A stretch of DNA of 64,000 bases from Tenggerimyces flavus (lineage in GTDB: Bacteria > Actinomycetota > Actinomycetes > Propionibacteriales > Actinopolymorphaceae): contig NZ_JAFBCM010000001.1 in assembly GCF_016907715.1 (NCBI RefSeq), positions 1,736,001 to 1,800,000 of the forward strand. Reading direction: 5' to 3'. The position numbers were made by a program, and so were the translations under genes. Shown here piece after piece: positions 28,417 through 38,134 of the stretch. The first letter of the stretch is position 1. Each line of letters opens with the position of its first letter. Under the pieces are notes generated by a model, which worked only from the letters and a program-made list of their open reading frames with translations, searched no databases and had not been told where the DNA came from.

Positions 28417-29907
28417 TTATGGCGTTGGCGGTGTCTGCGGGTCGGGTGGCGTCGTCAAGCTGACCTTGGCAGAGGCAGGCGAGGCGTTGCCGCTCTGGTC
28501 GCGGGCGACGAGGTGGAACTCGTACGTCGTCGCCGACTTCAGGGCGCCGATCGCGATCGACACGGTTGCCGGCGGGAGGCTGAGGATGCGCTTGCCGTCG
28601 CGGTAGACGTCGTACTTCGCGACCTCGCCGTCCGGATCGACCGCTGGCACCCAGGTGAGCCAGACGCTCGTCGGTGTCGAGGCGATGCCCGAGAGTCCCG
28701 TCGGCGCCTGCGGGCGGCGGCGGTCGGAGTCGAGCGTCGACACGCGGAGCTCGTCGGTCGCGCCGGAACGGTTGCCCGCCGCGTCGCGCGCCCGCACGGT
28801 GAACTCGTGCCGGCTGTCCGCCTCGAGGTCCCGCACCACCGCGGACGTCGCGCCCTTGCTCGCCGTCGCGACGCGCAGGCCGTCGTCGTACACGTCGTAA
28901 GCCACAACGCCGTGCCGGCTCGGCACCTTGTCCCAGGCGAGTGTGATCGTCGTCGACGTGCGGCCGACCCAGCGGAGCCCGTTCGGCTCCGACGGCGGGG
29001 TGCGGTCGCGCCGCCACGGCTCGAGCAGCTCGATGTGCTTCCCCCAGTACCCGTCGCTCGGCAGCAGGTTCCACGGGTTGGGCATGACGCCCGGGGTGAC
29101 GTAGACGTACCCGGCGTTCCGGACCTTGGACAGGATGATCGCCTCGGTCAGTTCGGCCTCGGTCTGCGTGTCGTAGATCAGGTGCCAGAACTTGTGCGGG
29201 TCCTCTTCGAGCGTCCACGCGGGCGGTTCCCATTCGCGGTACGTGGTGAGGGTGCCTTCGAACGCGAGCAGAATGTCGGCCGAGTCGCGGTAACACTCGT
29301 CCATGCCGGTGCCCTGGTTCGTCACCGAGATCGCGTCGATGTGGAGCTCTTTGAGATACGCGTTCAGCATCGAGATGCGGTGGACGTATTCGTTGTCCGT
29401 GCCGCACTGGTTGGTGACCTGGTCGAAGAAGATGCCGCCAATGCCCGCGTCGCCGTACAGCTCGTACCAGGCGTTGACGTCCTGCTGAGCCTGGGCAAGC
29501 CACGCGTCGGGGTCGGTCGCGCCGAGCCGCGTGGTGTGGCCGGTCGTGCCGAAGTAGCCGATGTCGACGTACCCGAGCATGGTGATGCCCGAGTCGACGG
29601 CGGCCTTGATCACCCTTGTGTAGTTGGGATCCACGAGGTCGTGCGGGCCGTTGAACGGGTTCGCGATCGCGATGCTGACGTTCTTGCCGGACTTCGTGAG
29701 CTTGTCCCAGTACGCGACGGTTTCGTCTCTTGGCGGAAAGTACGTCGGAACGGCGAGTTGCTGGGCAATCGACACCTGTGGCCGTCCTGGGAGTATTTCG
29801 GATTCTTTGTCGATCTCAGATTGTGCAGTAGTCGGGATGGTCCACACCAGCCCGGCGGTGATCGTGAGGGCGCCGATCGTCAACGCTCGAATGGCGCGAA
29901 ACCGCAT
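28417..29907 (-). CDS. Secreted spherulin-4-like glycosidase with two FnIII domains
   Basis: A 496-aa exported protein. After a signal peptide (about 1-29), residues 45-300 resemble the spherulation-specific family 4 TIM barrel: LAVPTYFPP, GYVDIGYFGTTG, and YGDAGIGGIFFDQVT with acidic residues near the barrel mouth. Two fibronectin type III domains follow (about 305-395 and 400-490; PSEPNGLRWVGRTSTTITLA and PQAPTGLSGIASTPTSVWLT), and the tail is Pro-rich. Spherulin-4 relatives cleave galactosaminogalactan-like polymers, so a polysaccharide substrate is plausible. ATG 29907 gives a full signal peptide. Confidence 0.85.
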   Translation of the reverse strand: MRFRAIRALTIGALTITAGLVWTIPTTAQSEIDKESEILPGRPQVSIAQQLAVPTYFPPRDETVAYWDKLTKSGKNVSIAIANPFNGPHDLVDPNYTRVIKAAVDSGITMLGYVDIGYFGTTGHTTRLGATDPDAWLAQAQQDVNAWYELYGDAGIGGIFFDQVTNQCGTDNEYVHRISMLNAYLKELHIDAISVTNQGTGMDECYRDSADILLAFEGTLTTYREWEPPAWTLEEDPHKFWHLIYDTQTEAELTEAIILSKVRNAGYVYVTPGVMPNPWNLLPSDGYWGKHIELLEPWRRDRTPPSEPNGLRWVGRTSTTITLAWDKVPSRHGVVAYDVYDDGLRVATASKGATSAVVRDLEADSRHEFTVRARDAAGNRSGATDELRVSTLDSDRRRPQAPTGLSGIASTPTSVWLTWVPAVDPDGEVAKYDVYRDGKRILSLPPATVSIAIGALKSATTYEFHLVARDQSGNASPASAKVSLTTPPDPQTPPTP

Positions 29908-30749: not shown

Positions 30750-30823
30750 GGGCAGGTAGCTCAGTTGGTACGAGCGTCCGCCTGAAAAGCGGAAGGTCGG
30801 CGGTTCGACCCCGCCCCTGCCCA
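30750..30823 (+). tRNA. tRNA-Phe (GAA), integration site
   Basis: Acceptor GGGCAGG/CCTGCCC, D-arm GCTCAGTTGGTACGAGC, anticodon loop CTGAAAA (GAA at 30784-30786) and T-arm GGCGG-TTCGACC-CCGCC. Its 3' half forms attL of the integrated element, so the insertion regenerated an intact tRNA. Confidence 0.95.
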
Positions 30824-30827
30824 CCTC
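30786..30827. repeat. attL: 42-bp direct repeat in tRNA-Phe
   Basis: The sequence starts AAAGCGGAAGGTCGGCGGTT and ends CCCACCTC. It is repeated exactly at 38093-38134 and covers the 3' anticodon arm to just past the tRNA end. The flanks differ beyond both ends, which defines the core. Confidence 0.95.
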
Positions 30828-30913: not shown

Positions 30914-32137
30914 TCATCGAGCTTCCTCAGGGGCTTCCCGCTTCTCCGTCATTGAGGCGTGGGCGTAGATCGTCATCGTGACCTCGATGTCGGCGTGTCC
31001 GACGATGTCTCGGACCACGTGCGGCGGCACGCCAAGATCAAGTAGCAGGGTCACGCAGCTGTGCCGTAGATCATGAAACCGGATCGGACCGAGCCCAGCG
31101 GCATCGCGGAGCGGGTACCAGCTCCGACGCAGGTTGTCCGGCTCGATGGGAGTACCTCGACGCGAGGTGAAGACGTAGCCGGTCGACTCCCAGCTCGACC
31201 CGGCCTCAGCGCGTTCCTGAGCCTGTCGTTCCTTGTGCGAGACCAACGCGTCGTGGCAGAGGCCGATCAGCGGGACAGTTCTACGGGAGGACCGAGTCTT
31301 CGGCGTCACCGGTTGGAGGCGTGAGCCGACGCGTTGCAGGGTCCTTCGGACCTCCAAGGCCCCAGCGTCTAGACCGATGTCGTCCCATCTGAGTCCGAGC
31401 AGCTTGCCTCGGCGCAGGCCGAGGTAGAGCGCGAGCACGTAGAGCGCCTCTAGCCGGTCCTCGCTGGCAGTGGCCCGAAACTTCCGCGCCTGCTCAACGT
31501 TCAACCAGCGGTTGATCTCGTAGCTCGGGCCGGAGACCTGCACGAGCTTGGCCACATTCCTGGCGAGCAGTTCCTCGCGGACGGCGGCCTGCAACGCGTT
31601 GCGCAATACCGCGTGGGCTTGCTGTACGAGTCGATCAGATGGGAACTGGCAACAGTTCTTCGGTCGTAAAGCACAGCACCGTCGCTGACCTTCGGGACGG
31701 CGCTCGTCGAGTCCATGCAGGCAGCACGGACAGGTGTTCCGCATTCGAGTGAGGAAGTGCCGGACGTCTGGCGCGGAGAGTTTGTGCAGCTTCTTCCTGC
31801 CCAGCTGCGGCACCAGGTAGACGCGAACGATCACCTCGTAGCCATGATGCGTCTTCGGCTTCCGTGCCGGTCGAACGATGTGCTCCAGCCAGTACGCCAG
31901 GAACAGCGCCAACGTCCAACCGGTTGCCTCAGCGGGTACGTCTTGCTGGGAGCGGCTCAGTGCATCCACGAGCTTGCCGCGGACTTTGGCCTCGGTGTCG
32001 GCGTAGAAGTCCCTTCGCTGCGTCGTCCCGTCGCCCATGAGGAGGTACGCCCGCCCGACCCAGCGTCCGTCCTTGCGCTGGTAGACCGTGCCATTCCCGT
32101 TCGGGCGCTTACGTCCGATCTTGCGTCGTCGAGTCAT
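30914..32137 (-). CDS. int: Tyrosine site-specific integrase
   Basis: A 407-aa phage-type recombinase. Catalytic residues can be read as R243 (GLRRG), K280 (TPKTRSSRR), H355-x-x-R358 (FHDLRHS), H381 (VGHADI) and nucleophile Y391. The Glu usual after RxG-type box I is Lys here (LRRGK). A Cys-rich insert (NTCPCCLHGL to CCALRPKNCC, about 135-163) is common in actinobacterial integrases. ATG 32137 overlaps the xis stop in ATGA, so the two are coupled. It should recombine the 42-bp tRNA-Phe repeats. The gene starts 91 bp inside attL. Confidence 0.95.
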   Translation of the reverse strand: MTRRRKIGRKRPNGNGTVYQRKDGRWVGRAYLLMGDGTTQRRDFYADTEAKVRGKLVDALSRSQQDVPAEATGWTLALFLAYWLEHIVRPARKPKTHHGYEVIVRVYLVPQLGRKKLHKLSAPDVRHFLTRMRNTCPCCLHGLDERRPEGQRRCCALRPKNCCQFPSDRLVQQAHAVLRNALQAAVREELLARNVAKLVQVSGPSYEINRWLNVEQARKFRATASEDRLEALYVLALYLGLRRGKLLGLRWDDIGLDAGALEVRRTLQRVGSRLQPVTPKTRSSRRTVPLIGLCHDALVSHKERQAQERAEAGSSWESTGYVFTSRRGTPIEPDNLRRSWYPLRDAAGLGPIRFHDLRHSCVTLLLDLGVPPHVVRDIVGHADIEVTMTIYAHASMTEKREAPEEAR

Positions 32138-32316
32138 GCGGCGGTCTCCTCGACGAGAACGGCTATCACTTCGGGCAGGGCGTCGACAGGTACGAGCCGT
32201 CGAGCCCCGATCTTGACGGTTCGTAGCCGCCGCGTTCGGATCAAGTCGTAGAGCGCAGACCGACCGATACCTAGGCGCTGGGCGGCTTCCGTCGTCGTCA
32301 ACAAGAGCTTGTCCAT
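32134..32316 (-). CDS. xis: Excisionase/AlpA-like helix-turn-helix protein
   Basis: A 60-aa protein with a single MerR-like winged HTH: LLTTTEAAQRLGIGRSALYD followed by LIRTRRLRTVKIGARRLVP. Its length and position, directly upstream of and overlapping int by 4 nt, are those of AICE excisionases that direct excision by the integrase. The acidic tail VLVEETAA is normal. Confidence 0.9.
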   Translation of the reverse strand: MDKLLLTTTEAAQRLGIGRSALYDLIRTRRLRTVKIGARRLVPVDALPEVIAVLVEETAA

Positions 32317-32370
32317 GAGCGTTTCTCCTTTCTACATTGAGGTCCTGCCGATCCTCTTGACACCAATGCG

Positions 32371-33330
32371 TCAAGCGGGGCTGCTGATCTCCTCTCGGGC
32401 GACGCGGCTGTGCTCACGGGCGAGGGCGGCGGTGGTGTTGGCGAGCATGGCGTCGCCGGAGGTGAGCCAGCCGCTTCCGGCGTAGGTCAGCTCGGCTGCG
32501 GTTCGAGCGCTTGGTCTTCGTCGTCGACCTGGTGCTCGATCGTGCGGTGGTGGGAGCGTCGCCAGTCGATGCGAGCGCGGCGGAGCTGGCCGAAGGTCGT
32601 GGAGTAGCGGCGGCTCTTGGTGAAGAAGTGGCCGCCGTAGCCGGGCATGTGTGCCCAACGGCGAAGCCGTGCGTAAGGGTGCTTGGCGTACTCGGTAGTG
32701 GTGAGCAAGCCGCGGTGACCCAGGCGCCAGCAGGCGTCGACGAGGCGGCCGGTGTGGGTGTCGGTGGCGTAGAAGCCGACGGTGGTCTGGTCGAGCCGGC
32801 GGGAGAGATGACCGGTCGTCTCCGTTGCCTTGGTCGCGTACTTGGCGAGGTAGCCGGCGACGGCTTGCCCGGAGAGGATGCGACGTCGTCTCGTCTTCTG
32901 GTCCAGCTCGGCGGTAACTCGTTCGTCGCTAAGTGGGTCGCTGCCGCGGACTCGGACCGGGCGGATGTCGAGTTGGGTGCCCCAAGCTCATCGGCCAGCC
33001 GTCGGGTTGGTCGATGAGGACCTCTCGGAGGTGGTTCTCGATGCGCAGCGGCGGCGTGTGGAAAGTAATCGTCTCTGCGGCGCCGCGGAGCAGGGCGGTG
33101 AGTTCGAAGATGTTCGCCCTTCCGGTTCAGCGATCACGGCATCGGGATCGTCGGGGTCGATGCCGTCAAAGCGGACCAGGACGTGGAAGTGGGCGATGCC
33201 GCGTCGTTGGAACTCGGCGACCTTGCCGAACGAGAGAGTCGCACCCGGCCGGTATCGCCGTGCTTCACGGCGTGGGCCTTGAGGAGCCGGTTCGCGGTGA
33301 TCGTGGTGCGGCCTCTTCGGATGACCCGAC
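32371..33330 (-). pseudogene. RepSA-type rolling-circle replication initiator, frameshifted
   Basis: Minus-strand translation in shifting frames recovers a RepSA-like protein: GKVAEFQRRGIAHFHVLVRF (HUH-type strand), then GTQLDIRPVRVRGSDPL, SGQAVAGYLAKYATKATE, THTGRLVDACWRLGHRGLL and MPGYGGHFFTKSRRYSTTFG, ending with LTYAGSGWLTSGDA. At least three frame changes are needed, near 33100, 33000 and 32490, the last turning EPQPS-stop into ELTYAG. Initiation of autonomous replication is therefore lost. No single frame is long enough to be the working gene. Confidence 0.85.
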
Positions 33331-33490: not shown

Positions 33491-34324
33491 ATGGGGAACG
33501 CCGGGGACACCTCCCAAGGCGCCTCATCGGGACCACTCCAAAAAGGCGTGGAGCGGTACGGAGGACAAGTCGACTCGGTCACTTGGTCCGGCGTCGAACT
33601 CACTGAAGACCTGGTAAAGGGCGTTCTCTACGCCTGGAGGGAACGTGCATATGACGCAGAGCAGACTCTCCGAGTCGTAAGGGAGCTCCATTCGCTAGCG
33701 ACTACTGACATGCAAGTGGTCGCGCTACGGGAGGCAATCGAGAATGAATCGATTCCCCTACCTTGGGAACTCGGCGAAGCTCTAGCGGAAACGTTACTCC
33801 AAGAATGGCATGGAGCGATATGGGTTTGGAATAGCGGTCGCGACCGCCGAACACGTCACGCGAGCCTCCCGGGCGCTGATATCGTTGGCATGATTGTCGA
33901 CGAGCGGGGGGTGGCTATTCTCTTCGGTGAAGTGAAGACCTCATCAGACGCCAGGAATCCTCCGCAGGTGATGTACAGCAGAACAGGCATGATCCACCAG
34001 CTAGAAGGCCTTTGCGATAGATCCCTAAATCACTTCACGCTCCTTCGCTGGCTCAGGGTTCGGTGCACCTCAGACGCACATCTCGACCTTTACAAGCGCG
34101 CGGCCAGGCGCTACGTCGAGTCAGAGGGGCGCGACCTAGCGCTCGTCGGATGCTTGGTGCGTGACACAACCCCTCATGAGAATGATCTCAAGGCCCGAGC
34201 TACCGCGTTATCCACAGTCACCAGTGCGCCGACACGAGCTATGCTCGTGGCCTGGTATGTTCCGCTGCCAATGAGCACGTGGCACGAACAGGTGGGAGGG
34301 CCGGTGACATCAGCAGATGACTGA
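33491..34324 (+). CDS. PD-(D/E)XK-like nuclease, HamA-like candidate of a two-gene defense system
   Basis: A 277-aa soluble protein with no clear Shine-Dalgarno before ATG 33491; GTG starts downstream are possible. The putative active site is GAD130 followed by AILFGEVK, giving E147-x-K149, the D...ExK pattern of PD-(D/E)XK nucleases. Upstream, LGEALAETLLQEWHG may supply another acidic residue. This layout resembles HamA (DUF1837) of Hachiman or AbpA, but overall similarity is not established by eye. Its end overlaps the helicase start by 8 nt (ATGACTGA), so both are made together. G+C is far lower than in the flanks. Role inferred: DNA cleavage upon phage infection. Confidence 0.65.
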   Translation: MGNAGDTSQGASSGPLQKGVERYGGQVDSVTWSGVELTEDLVKGVLYAWRERAYDAEQTLRVVRELHSLATTDMQVVALREAIENESIPLPWELGEALAETLLQEWHGAIWVWNSGRDRRTRHASLPGADIVGMIVDERGVAILFGEVKTSSDARNPPQVMYSRTGMIHQLEGLCDRSLNHFTLLRWLRVRCTSDAHLDLYKRAARRYVESEGRDLALVGCLVRDTTPHENDLKARATALSTVTSAPTRAMLVAWYVPLPMSTWHEQVGGPVTSADD

Positions 34325-37300
34325 CCTCTCATGGCTCGAAGGATCACTCGATGCCGGTTCGATCCAGCGGGCGGACCACGAGGCAAAACGCCGAATCGTG
34401 CGTGAAGCGCTACGCTCGGTTGAGGCTCCCGACGGCGCTGTGAGCGACGTGCCCTCGCAACGCACAGCAGCGGAGGACTCATCAAGTCTGACATTTGTCA
34501 GCCGCAGTCTCGATCTCGTTGCCTGGGATGCAATCGTTTCTTCCGACCGCGCAAACCCTCAAACTCGACAGCTCTGTGCCCAAGCGTTCGCTCTAGCTCG
34601 AACACAACTAGATGAGGTACCCGCGGATACGCGACGAATCGCACTTCTCCGCACCGCATGCTTGGGCTGGCTTGCAGACGAACCCACTCTGGCCACTCGA
34701 CTACTCGTCGATGAGGCTATTTCGCCATTAGCAACGACTTCTAACTCTTGGGGCGACATAGTACGAGAAGGCGTTATCGACGTCTGGCTGATCATTTTGA
34801 GAAAGAATGGCTGGAGCGACATCGATCTGTTGGCTCAGCGTTTAGCAGGGCTGCGATCCAGCCAGGATGAGCTAGAGCGCGCTTATCTCAACAACCTCGG
34901 TGACATGGCGCGCACTGGGGCGTTCGAGCTTGTTGCTTCATATCACCTGCTAAAGGCGGGCGAATTGATGGCGGAGTACCTGGCGGAGGGTAAGATCACC
35001 ACCGAAGGTGGTAATACTCGCTTCGATATTCGAGAGCGCCTACAGGGGCACTTCGATCGCGCAATTGATGCCGCTTCTAGCTCGCAAGATATCGAGCTAG
35101 AAGAACTCATCCGGCTTCTGCGCCCAACGTCAGAGCAAATCGTCGACAACAGTTTGTGGACCGTCGCACGTGCAGTTAGCCCTCGCACGTCCGAATTCGT
35201 TGCAGCCCTAATAGGGCGTGGGCGGGGGCGGCCAATTTTCGAAGCCTTACCGCCACAGCGACACGCACTAGCGGAGCAAGGGCTAATCCGGTCGTCATTT
35301 CGCAGCGTAGTCGTTAGCCTTCCCACCAGCGCCGGCAAGACTCTAATAGCCGAATTCCGCATCTTACAGGCGCTAAGCGCCTACCGGGAACAGGGAGGTT
35401 GGGTCGCGTATCTTGCTCCAACCCGCGCCCTTGTCAATCAAGTAACGCGACGGCTGCGTCAGGACCTCGGCAGTCTCGGAATAAGGGTTGAACGCGTGAG
35501 CCCAGCCCTGGAAGTCGACGGCCTAGAAGCAGGAATTTTTAGTGAAGACGATCCGGATCGCCAATTTCAGATTGTAGTCTCGACTCCAGAGAAACTCGAC
35601 CTTCTACTGAGAACCGGATGGGAAGAGAGAATAGGCCGACCCCTCTGCCTTGTCGTCGTAGATGAAGCGCACAACTTGTCGACACCGACCCGCGGAATAC
35701 GTCTGGAACTACTTCTGGCGACGATTAACCGAGAAGCGCAAGATGCAGCGTTCATTCTACTGACGCCTTTCATTCGGAACGCGCAGCAGATCGCGGCCTG
35801 GCTGGACCCAGCAAGTAACCAAGCAATCGGTATGACAATTGACTGGACGCCAAACGACCGAATCATTGCGCTGGCGCACCGACAACGTGGGGGAAAGCGC
35901 GGCGACTATCATGTTGAGCTAGAAACCCTTGTCACCAGCCGTAGCACTCTTGGCGTTGCTGACGCGCTACCCGTGGGCGGAAATAGGCCTCTTCACCAGA
36001 CGTACTCTGATGCCGGTTCTCCAGGCTCCCTTGCTGCGGCCACCTCCGCTATTCTAGCTGGTCGCGGAACGACGATTACGCTTGCACAGAGACCGTCATA
36101 TGCGTGGGCGTTGGCGCAGAAATTAGGGGATACGACTCCTCCCCTTTCCGCGCGCTCAGCCGAGCTGGATGCTATAAAGACAGTTGTAGCAGCAGAGTTC
36201 GGAGCAAACTTTCCCCTCCTAGACCTCCTCGATCGTGGGATCGGCCTCCACCACGGCGGGCTGCCCGACGAGGTTCGAACCGTAATTGAATATCTCGTTG
36301 AGCGTGGCGACATTAATCATCTTGTCGCAACGACAACAATCGCTCAGGGCGTCAACTTTCCTGTAGCAAATGTCGTTCTCGCATCTCATCAGTTTCCTTA
36401 CGGTGTAGATATACCTACCGCAGACTTCTGGAATCTTGCAGGTAGGGCGGGGCGCGTCGATCAGGGAGAGGTGGGCCTCGTAGCGCTTGCGGCTCCCGAT
36501 GCCGAACGAGCGGACAAGCTTCGGACCTTCGTTGAACGAAGCGTTCTAGATCTAAACTCGACCCTCGTTTCGTTAGTACAGGAGGCGATCGAAACATCTG
36601 GGCAATTGGCCCTCCACACGCTGACGTATCAAGAAGGCTGGTCAGCGTTTGCTCAGTTTCTGGCGCACACGTATCGACAGTTTCCCAGTCACCGCGAATT
36701 TGCCAGCGAGATCGACCAGATCCTTAGAGGCTCCTTTGGATATCAGGAGCTGCGAAGAGTAGATCCAATAGCAGCCAACACGCTGATTGAGGCGGTCCGT
36801 TCATACACTGAACGACTCACGGGTCGCCCCCTATCGCTAGTCGACAGTACCGGTTTCTCGTGGGAGAGCGTGTCAGCCACACTTGGGCGGCTTTCGGAGC
36901 GAAGACTTGATCGAGACATATGGTCCGAGGACATCTTCGCAGGCGAGCATCGACCTCTATCGGATCTTGTCGGCGTGATGCTTCAGGTTCCGGAACTCCG
37001 TGAGAACCTCCTGGAACTTGCAATAGAGCACGGAGACGCGGGCGGAACGTACATTGCCAACGTAGTAAGTGACTGGGTAAACGGCAGAGCGGTGACGGAT
37101 ATCGCCGATGACTACTTCCGGCGACCTGGTGACAACCAGCTTGTGGCCGTAACGAGATGCTGTCAAAGGCTGTTCGGAGACATTGCTCCTACAATCGCGT
37201 GGGGGCTCTCAGCAATGCAAGCAATGACCCTCGCAGGCGTATTCGATGACCTGCCACCTGAGGAACAACGCTCCCTGAGAAACGTCCCTTCTTTTGTATT

Positions 37301-37550
37301 CTATGGGGTAAACGACGAGGCATCGATTGCGATGCGTCTTCTTGGGGTTCCGCGATCAGCGGCGTCGCAGTTGGCAGCCGCCATGCACTCCGAACAGATG
37401 ATGACCGGTGTACGCGATGACAGCGAACTACAAATAGGTGAGATTCGCGAGAGATTGTCGCGCTTGAGCCAGAGCGATTGGGTCAGGTTTCTTGGCGATG
37501 CCGGGAATGCTTACCAAGCGGTCTGGGAAATAATGGACGGCTCGCGCTAG
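34317..37550 (+). CDS. Ski2/Hel308-like DEAH helicase, HamB-like candidate
   Basis: A 1077-aa superfamily 2 helicase. The first 320 residues are helical with no known motif. Core motifs: I LPTSAGKTLIAEF (about 334), Ia APTRALVNQ, II VVDEAHNL (about 447), a motif III-like LLTPFIRNA (usually S/T-A-T), then IGLHHGGLP, TTTIAQGVNFP, and VI LAGRAGRVDQG (about 708). About 350 C-terminal residues form a helical, winged-helix-like tail. Size and motif set fit HamB/AbpB-type helicases that partner a small nuclease. It presumably tracks on or unwinds invading DNA and licenses the nuclease. Codons are A/T-richer than the chromosome's, a sign of transfer. Confidence 0.8.
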   Translation: MTDLSWLEGSLDAGSIQRADHEAKRRIVREALRSVEAPDGAVSDVPSQRTAAEDSSSLTFVSRSLDLVAWDAIVSSDRANPQTRQLCAQAFALARTQLDEVPADTRRIALLRTACLGWLADEPTLATRLLVDEAISPLATTSNSWGDIVREGVIDVWLIILRKNGWSDIDLLAQRLAGLRSSQDELERAYLNNLGDMARTGAFELVASYHLLKAGELMAEYLAEGKITTEGGNTRFDIRERLQGHFDRAIDAASSSQDIELEELIRLLRPTSEQIVDNSLWTVARAVSPRTSEFVAALIGRGRGRPIFEALPPQRHALAEQGLIRSSFRSVVVSLPTSAGKTLIAEFRILQALSAYREQGGWVAYLAPTRALVNQVTRRLRQDLGSLGIRVERVSPALEVDGLEAGIFSEDDPDRQFQIVVSTPEKLDLLLRTGWEERIGRPLCLVVVDEAHNLSTPTRGIRLELLLATINREAQDAAFILLTPFIRNAQQIAAWLDPASNQAIGMTIDWTPNDRIIALAHRQRGGKRGDYHVELETLVTSRSTLGVADALPVGGNRPLHQTYSDAGSPGSLAAATSAILAGRGTTITLAQRPSYAWALAQKLGDTTPPLSARSAELDAIKTVVAAEFGANFPLLDLLDRGIGLHHGGLPDEVRTVIEYLVERGDINHLVATTTIAQGVNFPVANVVLASHQFPYGVDIPTADFWNLAGRAGRVDQGEVGLVALAAPDAERADKLRTFVERSVLDLNSTLVSLVQEAIETSGQLALHTLTYQEGWSAFAQFLAHTYRQFPSHREFASEIDQILRGSFGYQELRRVDPIAANTLIEAVRSYTERLTGRPLSLVDSTGFSWESVSATLGRLSERRLDRDIWSEDIFAGEHRPLSDLVGVMLQVPELRENLLELAIEHGDAGGTYIANVVSDWVNGRAVTDIADDYFRRPGDNQLVAVTRCCQRLFGDIAPTIAWGLSAMQAMTLAGVFDDLPPEEQRSLRNVPSFVFYGVNDEASIAMRLLGVPRSAASQLAAAMHSEQMMTGVRDDSELQIGEIRERLSRLSQSDWVRFLGDAGNAYQAVWEIMDGSR

Positions 37551-38092: not shown

Positions 38093-38134
38093 AAAGCGGA
38101 AGGTCGGCGGTTCGACCCCGCCCCTGCCCACCTC
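38093..38134. repeat. attR: 42-bp copy of tRNA-Phe 3' half
   Basis: An exact copy of 30786-30827. Only the 3' half of the tRNA is present here and the bases to its left differ from the tRNA, so this is the distal attachment site, not a second tRNA. Confidence 0.95.

Follow-up and report, generated by a model that had tools for sequence, protein, structure and literature searches.

The PDC-M23 gene pair of Tenggerimyces flavus, a probable divergent Hachiman-type anti-phage system on a decayed AICE

Two overlapping genes of Tenggerimyces flavus, M23A and M23B, likely form a two-gene anti-phage system that belongs to the candidate system PDC-M23, represents a divergent branch of Hachiman, acts in a HamAB-like manner, and is the cargo of a decayed AICE at a tRNA-Phe gene. 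Within the window, the 64,000-nucleotide stretch of DNA that was analysed, M23A (33491 to 34324, forward strand) encodes a predicted 277-amino-acid HamA-like PD-(D/E)XK nuclease with the residues E96, D130, and E147-x-K149, and M23B (34317 to 37550, forward strand) encodes a predicted 1,077-amino-acid Ski2-like DEAH helicase. The TGA stop codon of M23A falls within M23B ATGACTGA, giving an overlap of 8 nucleotides; these positions, lengths, and overlap are those given in the initial annotation. The G+C content is 58.6% for M23A and 56.4% for M23B versus 68.9% in the window outside the element, and GC3 is 62% and 55%, respectively. This bears out the earlier statement that the pair is lower in G+C than the chromosome (56 to 59% versus 69% around the pair). 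Chance open reading frames are ruled out, since full-length homologous pairs are present elsewhere. The pair is intact and well preserved, with both reading frames, the catalytic residues, and the helicase motifs kept. The start codon of M23A is uncertain: most homologues lack residues corresponding to 1 to approximately 16, and the first ten residues of the predicted model have a pLDDT of 36. M23A is present in one copy in the 8.52-Mb single-contig genome.

Both proteins matched PDC-M23 models in PADLOC-DB 2.0.0 (2023), where PDC-M23 is listed as a candidate system; the initial annotation had suggested a PADLOC comparison. M23A matched PDC-M23A model PDLC04527 (E = 3.6e-83; residues 22 to 268 on profile positions 9 to 258 of 263), and M23B matched PDC-M23B model PDLC04531 (1277 bits; residues 5 to 1075 on profile positions 5 to 1059 of 1060). 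Both models were thus matched almost end to end, and the gene order is the same; nothing material sets the pair apart, the window copy lying on an AICE remnant and not inside another defence operon. Since M23A fails the curated HamA cut-offs, the pair is classed under PDC-M23 as a divergent Hachiman-type system. It had been proposed to be either a divergent actinobacterial Hachiman or a related undescribed system. The divergent Hachiman type is the likely reading. The pair is not undescribed or a new kind of system, because a database of 2023 already contains it as a candidate, and it is not specifically actinobacterial, given its occurrence in Thiomargarita, in another pseudomonadote, and in IMG/VR contigs. 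The PDC candidate set is reportedly due to the preprint of Payne et al. 2024. In the open-access literature, no paper was found under the name PDC-M23.

The predicted model of M23A (pLDDT 78, pTM 0.77) was compared with the PDB by using Foldseek, and the top match was HamA of Escherichia coli ECOR31 (8vx9_A; E = 4.8e-5, prob 1.00), which was also the only significant one, the next match having an E value of 0.12. In VIA-align, 8vx9_A again scored highest (Z 14.9 over 237 residues, rmsd 4.2), followed by 8vxy_A (Z 13.2) and, in third place, the C-terminal half of AbpA (Z 11.3); among unrelated folds, FokI reached 6.3, and PaqCI and others reached 6.3 or less. The D130...E147-x-K149 pattern that had been noticed in the protein is present and, together with E96, is invariant in an alignment of eight A proteins. 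When profiles were compared in hhalign, M23A aligned to the 8VX9-type HamA clade with a probability of 96 (E = 5e-9, 14% identity), which placed E147 and K149 in register with the HamA catalytic residues E138 and K140. The corresponding probability was 49 for M23A and short HamA and 82 for a control comparison of the two HamA clades with each other, with an E value of 0.34 for a reversed-profile control; because small alignments underlie these comparisons, their ranking is indicative. When the M23A profile was searched against all PDB sequences, HamA took the top two ranks (E about 0.01), and a direct sequence search of the PDB with M23A found nothing. In its own scans, M23A of the window matched no PF08878 (DUF1837), NCBIfam, or PADLOC HamA model. 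Across the family, HamA (PF08878) was the sole Pfam family matched by more than one M23A member (three of eight, weakly; best E value, 0.007), and the divergent relative at locus L008 matched a PADLOC HamA model with an E value of 0.001. The predicted fold of M23A is therefore the PD-(D/E)XK fold of HamA, in which no catalytic residue has been lost, and the initial assignment of a PD-(D/E)XK nuclease agrees with the modeled fold.

M23B contains the motifs PTSAGKT (motif I), DEAH (motif II), and GRAGR (motif VI) and matched the Pfam families DEAD, ResIII, and Helicase_C, confirming its annotation as a Ski2-like DEAH helicase of SF2. With approximate borders, it consists of a helical N-terminal region (residues 1 to about 310), RecA1 (about 327 to 500), an insert (501 to 568), RecA2 (569 to 730), and a helical C-terminal part (731 to 1077). 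A phmmer comparison with HamB aligned HamB residues 289 to 725 to residues 287 to 716 (E = 1.6e-27), and the PADLOC HamB models covered mainly the helicase core of M23B. The best structural match of M23B was HamB over residues 1 to 1076 (Z 17 to 18.5), with an rmsd of about 20 and a low-confidence model (pLDDT 54.6, pTM 0.41) in which domain orientation is unreliable; in the structural comparison, other Ski2 helicases aligned only from about residue 315 on. There are 335 residues before the Walker A motif in M23B, 296 to 334 in the 8VX9-type HamB clade, and 124 to 170 in short HamB and AbpB, and the insert is as long as that of long HamB. Profile comparison of the N-terminal region alone with HamB gave a weak match (prob 48 over 70 residues). 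The N-terminal region probably corresponds to the helical, HamA-binding part of HamB and is not novel; since the model is poor, this correspondence rests on length, helix content, and the full-span alignment of high rmsd. The C-terminal part is approximately 100 residues shorter than that of HamB, with the alignment stopping near HamB residue 1087 of 1174. Judging by length only, the OB-like domain of HamB is probably missing from M23B, and DNA engagement may differ from that of HamB because this part is shorter. In the 320-residue N-terminal region and the long C-terminal tail, the initial annotation recognised no motif; these parts are not without known relatives, as both appear to fit the HamB layout.

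In a phylogenetic tree, the M23 helicases formed their own clade (97/99), apart from both the long HamB clade and the clade of short HamB and AbpB. The tree did not resolve how these clades, the HelY-like outgroup, and the viral Hachiman-like locus L035 branch relative to one another. L035 (4415 to 8250, IMG/VR) encodes a Hachiman-like pair, consisting of a HamA (PF08878, 35.7 bits) and a 1,004-amino-acid helicase whose C-terminal part is weakly like that of M23B. A further HamA-sized protein was observed on a Candidatus Manganitrophus plasmid (L069:4986-5744), where it adjoins a shortened helicase and a XamI-type restriction-modification (R-M) system. Its annotation as "SAVED domain-containing" was rejected, since the protein is plain HamA-sized and the name looks like a misannotation.

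Homologous pairs were collected at nine loci: the window, a Thiomargarita metagenome-assembled genome (L002), two other genomes of the window's phylum (L007 and L008), another genome of the pseudomonadote phylum of Thiomargarita (L011), and four IMG/VR contigs (L012, L013, L014, and L034). The A gene precedes the B gene in all nine, usually with an overlap, so that the linkage of the two genes assumed in the initial annotation is upheld at every locus. At L012, B runs off the contig end. On the viral contig L013 (5878 to 7529), M23A is intact and M23B is broken after about 285 residues. The family is rare, occurring in 4 of 396 genomes of the window's phylum (including one marginal case) and in 2 of 398 genomes of the other phylum. 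A single-query scan of genome contigs recovered one relative, a tblastn search of plasmids and phages with A gave no match, and scanning with P0008, a divergent helicase, likewise gave none. The M23B model, run over 398 genomes, picked up mostly other helicases and says little about prevalence. A PF08878 scan of 246 actinobacterial genomes had no match, and its controls were silent too, so this result is not evidence of absence.

Several of these pairs lie among defence genes. At L034 (3006 to 12452, IMG/VR), the order is hsdM, M23A, M23B, hsdR with overlapping ends, so that the nuclease and helicase genes are nested within a type I restriction operon. At L014 (1466 to 9018 on an 86-kb IMG/VR contig), M23AB lies directly downstream of brxL, and a weakly PglZ-like gene is also present. 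At L008, hsdR is found nearby on the opposite strand. These type I R-M and BREX neighborhoods support a defence role and accord with the title of Payne et al. 2024. A 2026 survey of BREX accessory genes makes no mention of HamA.

The window pair is carried by a 7.3-kb element bounded by exact 42-nucleotide direct repeats, attL (30786 to 30827) and attR (38093 to 38134). The attL copy overlaps the 3' end of the tRNA-Phe (gaa) gene (30750 to 30825, forward strand), which is the integration target. A tyrosine integrase gene (30914 to 32374, reverse strand) encodes 486 amino acids from the first TTG (PF00589, E = 2e-24; PF14659); its true start may be downstream of that codon. Between the integrase and the cargo is a broken RepSA replication-initiator gene of the AICE type (about 32490 to 33239, reverse strand; NF041486, E = 1.5e-9 and 2.7e-32), the fragments of which lie in one frame and are split by a stop codon. 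No transfer gene was found in the element. The tyrosine integrase and the broken RepSA identify the element as a decayed AICE that has lost replication: it shares with AICEs of the pSAM2 type a tyrosine integrase adjoining a tRNA gene and att repeats, but it lacks an intact replication initiator. The tRNA-integrated island described initially was recovered with its repeats, target, and integrase, and calling the pair its only intact cargo is essentially right, since the remaining recognizable gene is the stop-broken RepSA. Just outside the element, the window encodes a Spherulin4-like protein that carries two fibronectin type III domains (28417 to 29907).

In related genomes, a 45-nucleotide tRNA-Phe att sequence occurs in many copies over tens of kilobases (G004:C1:6501897-6551579; also in G005, G003, and G001), as if integrated elements had accumulated in tandem at tRNA-Phe. 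Since this att sequence, the same as in the window, is repeated in tandem at the corresponding site in several family members, tRNA-Phe is apparently a hotspot of integration. When the two flanks were joined to test for an empty site, relatives were matched only around the tRNA pair because the right flank is not conserved.

The pair most probably works like Hachiman. The HamAB mechanism has been solved, and HamAB acts by nonspecific DNA clearance (PMC12278908). By analogy, M23A and M23B would form a complex through the helical N-terminal region of M23B in which M23A is held inactive while M23B surveys DNA. Where M23B unwinds damaged or phage-derived DNA at the expense of ATP, the helical region would shift and M23A would be activated. 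M23A would then degrade the DNA of phage and host alike, whatever its sequence, so that the infected cell is killed or cleared in an abortive defence. The likeness to Hachiman with the 8VX9-type long HamB clade lies in the predicted fold of the A protein, the register of E147/K149 with E138/K140, the overlapping genes, and a Ski2-like helicase whose N-terminal region is of equal length and is predicted to be helical as well. In contrast to that system, M23A escapes the HamA models, motif II of M23B is DEAH whereas that of long HamB is DEGH, the C-terminal part of M23B is shorter, and the M23 helicases form a separate clade.

Other readings of the pair were weighed against this one. It could be a relic on a decayed element whose genes no longer protect the strain. 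The replication gene of the carrier is lost and no transfer gene was seen, and a consensus scan gave no convincing promoter, a result of little weight in an actinobacterium. However, the reading frames are intact, the catalytic and helicase motifs are all kept, and the genes still overlap, making a relic unlikely. A role in DNA repair or element maintenance instead of defence is suggested by the fact that Ski2-like helicases such as Hel308 work in repair and by the position of the L011 pair near a putative imuB/dnaE2 mutagenesis locus. We regard such a role as very improbable given the homology to HamAB, the presence of pairs in viral contigs and within defence operons, and a rare, sporadic distribution, at or below about 1% of the genomes sampled.

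The pair could instead act as a restriction-type system, in which the helicase translocates on unmodified foreign DNA, the nuclease cuts directly, and the cell is spared. Close linkage to type I R-M or BREX at three of the nine loci would fit such a system, as would the distant likeness of the nuclease core to FokI and PaqCI in VIA-align. It is nevertheless quite unlikely, since no methylase or specificity gene accompanies the pair inside the window's element and the closest solved relative, HamAB, clears DNA nonspecifically (PMC12278908). The initial annotation had likened the pairing to both Hachiman and AbpAB; a nuclease-helicase pair of this general type is supported, but not AbpAB itself. 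AbpAB is also a nuclease-helicase pair, the C-terminal half of AbpA shares the HamA-like fold, and AbpB is a weak match of M23B. However, AbpA carries an additional, N-terminal Cap4-like nuclease domain, and its HamA-like half has lost the active site (PMC12278908), whereas M23A keeps that site and its 277 amino acids are nearly all HamA fold with no Cap4-like domain, compared with 482 to 541 amino acids for the AbpA-type proteins used here. The hhalign comparison of M23A with AbpA was not significant, and M23B, with 1,077 amino acids versus 729 for the much shorter AbpB used here, falls outside the AbpB/short-HamB clade. On domain content and profile comparison, AbpAB was rejected as the identity of the pair, and an AbpAB-type system is hardly credible.

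The Hachiman-type reading ties the uncharacterised PDC-M23 entry to a mechanistically solved system, with named residues to mutate. In our comparisons, the distance between M23A and 8VX9-type HamA is smaller than that between the two HamA clades, and the boundary of Hachiman in current models may therefore be too narrow. A tentative extension, which we consider possible but doubtful, is that M23 serves as a second-line Hachiman-type module whose helicase recognises the DNA ends left by type I restriction or BREX and releases the nuclease. The embedding of M23 pairs in or beside R-M and BREX operons makes this cooperation testable. If it is true, that embedding would reflect functional coupling, and free-standing copies such as that of the window would rely on the R-M systems of their hosts.
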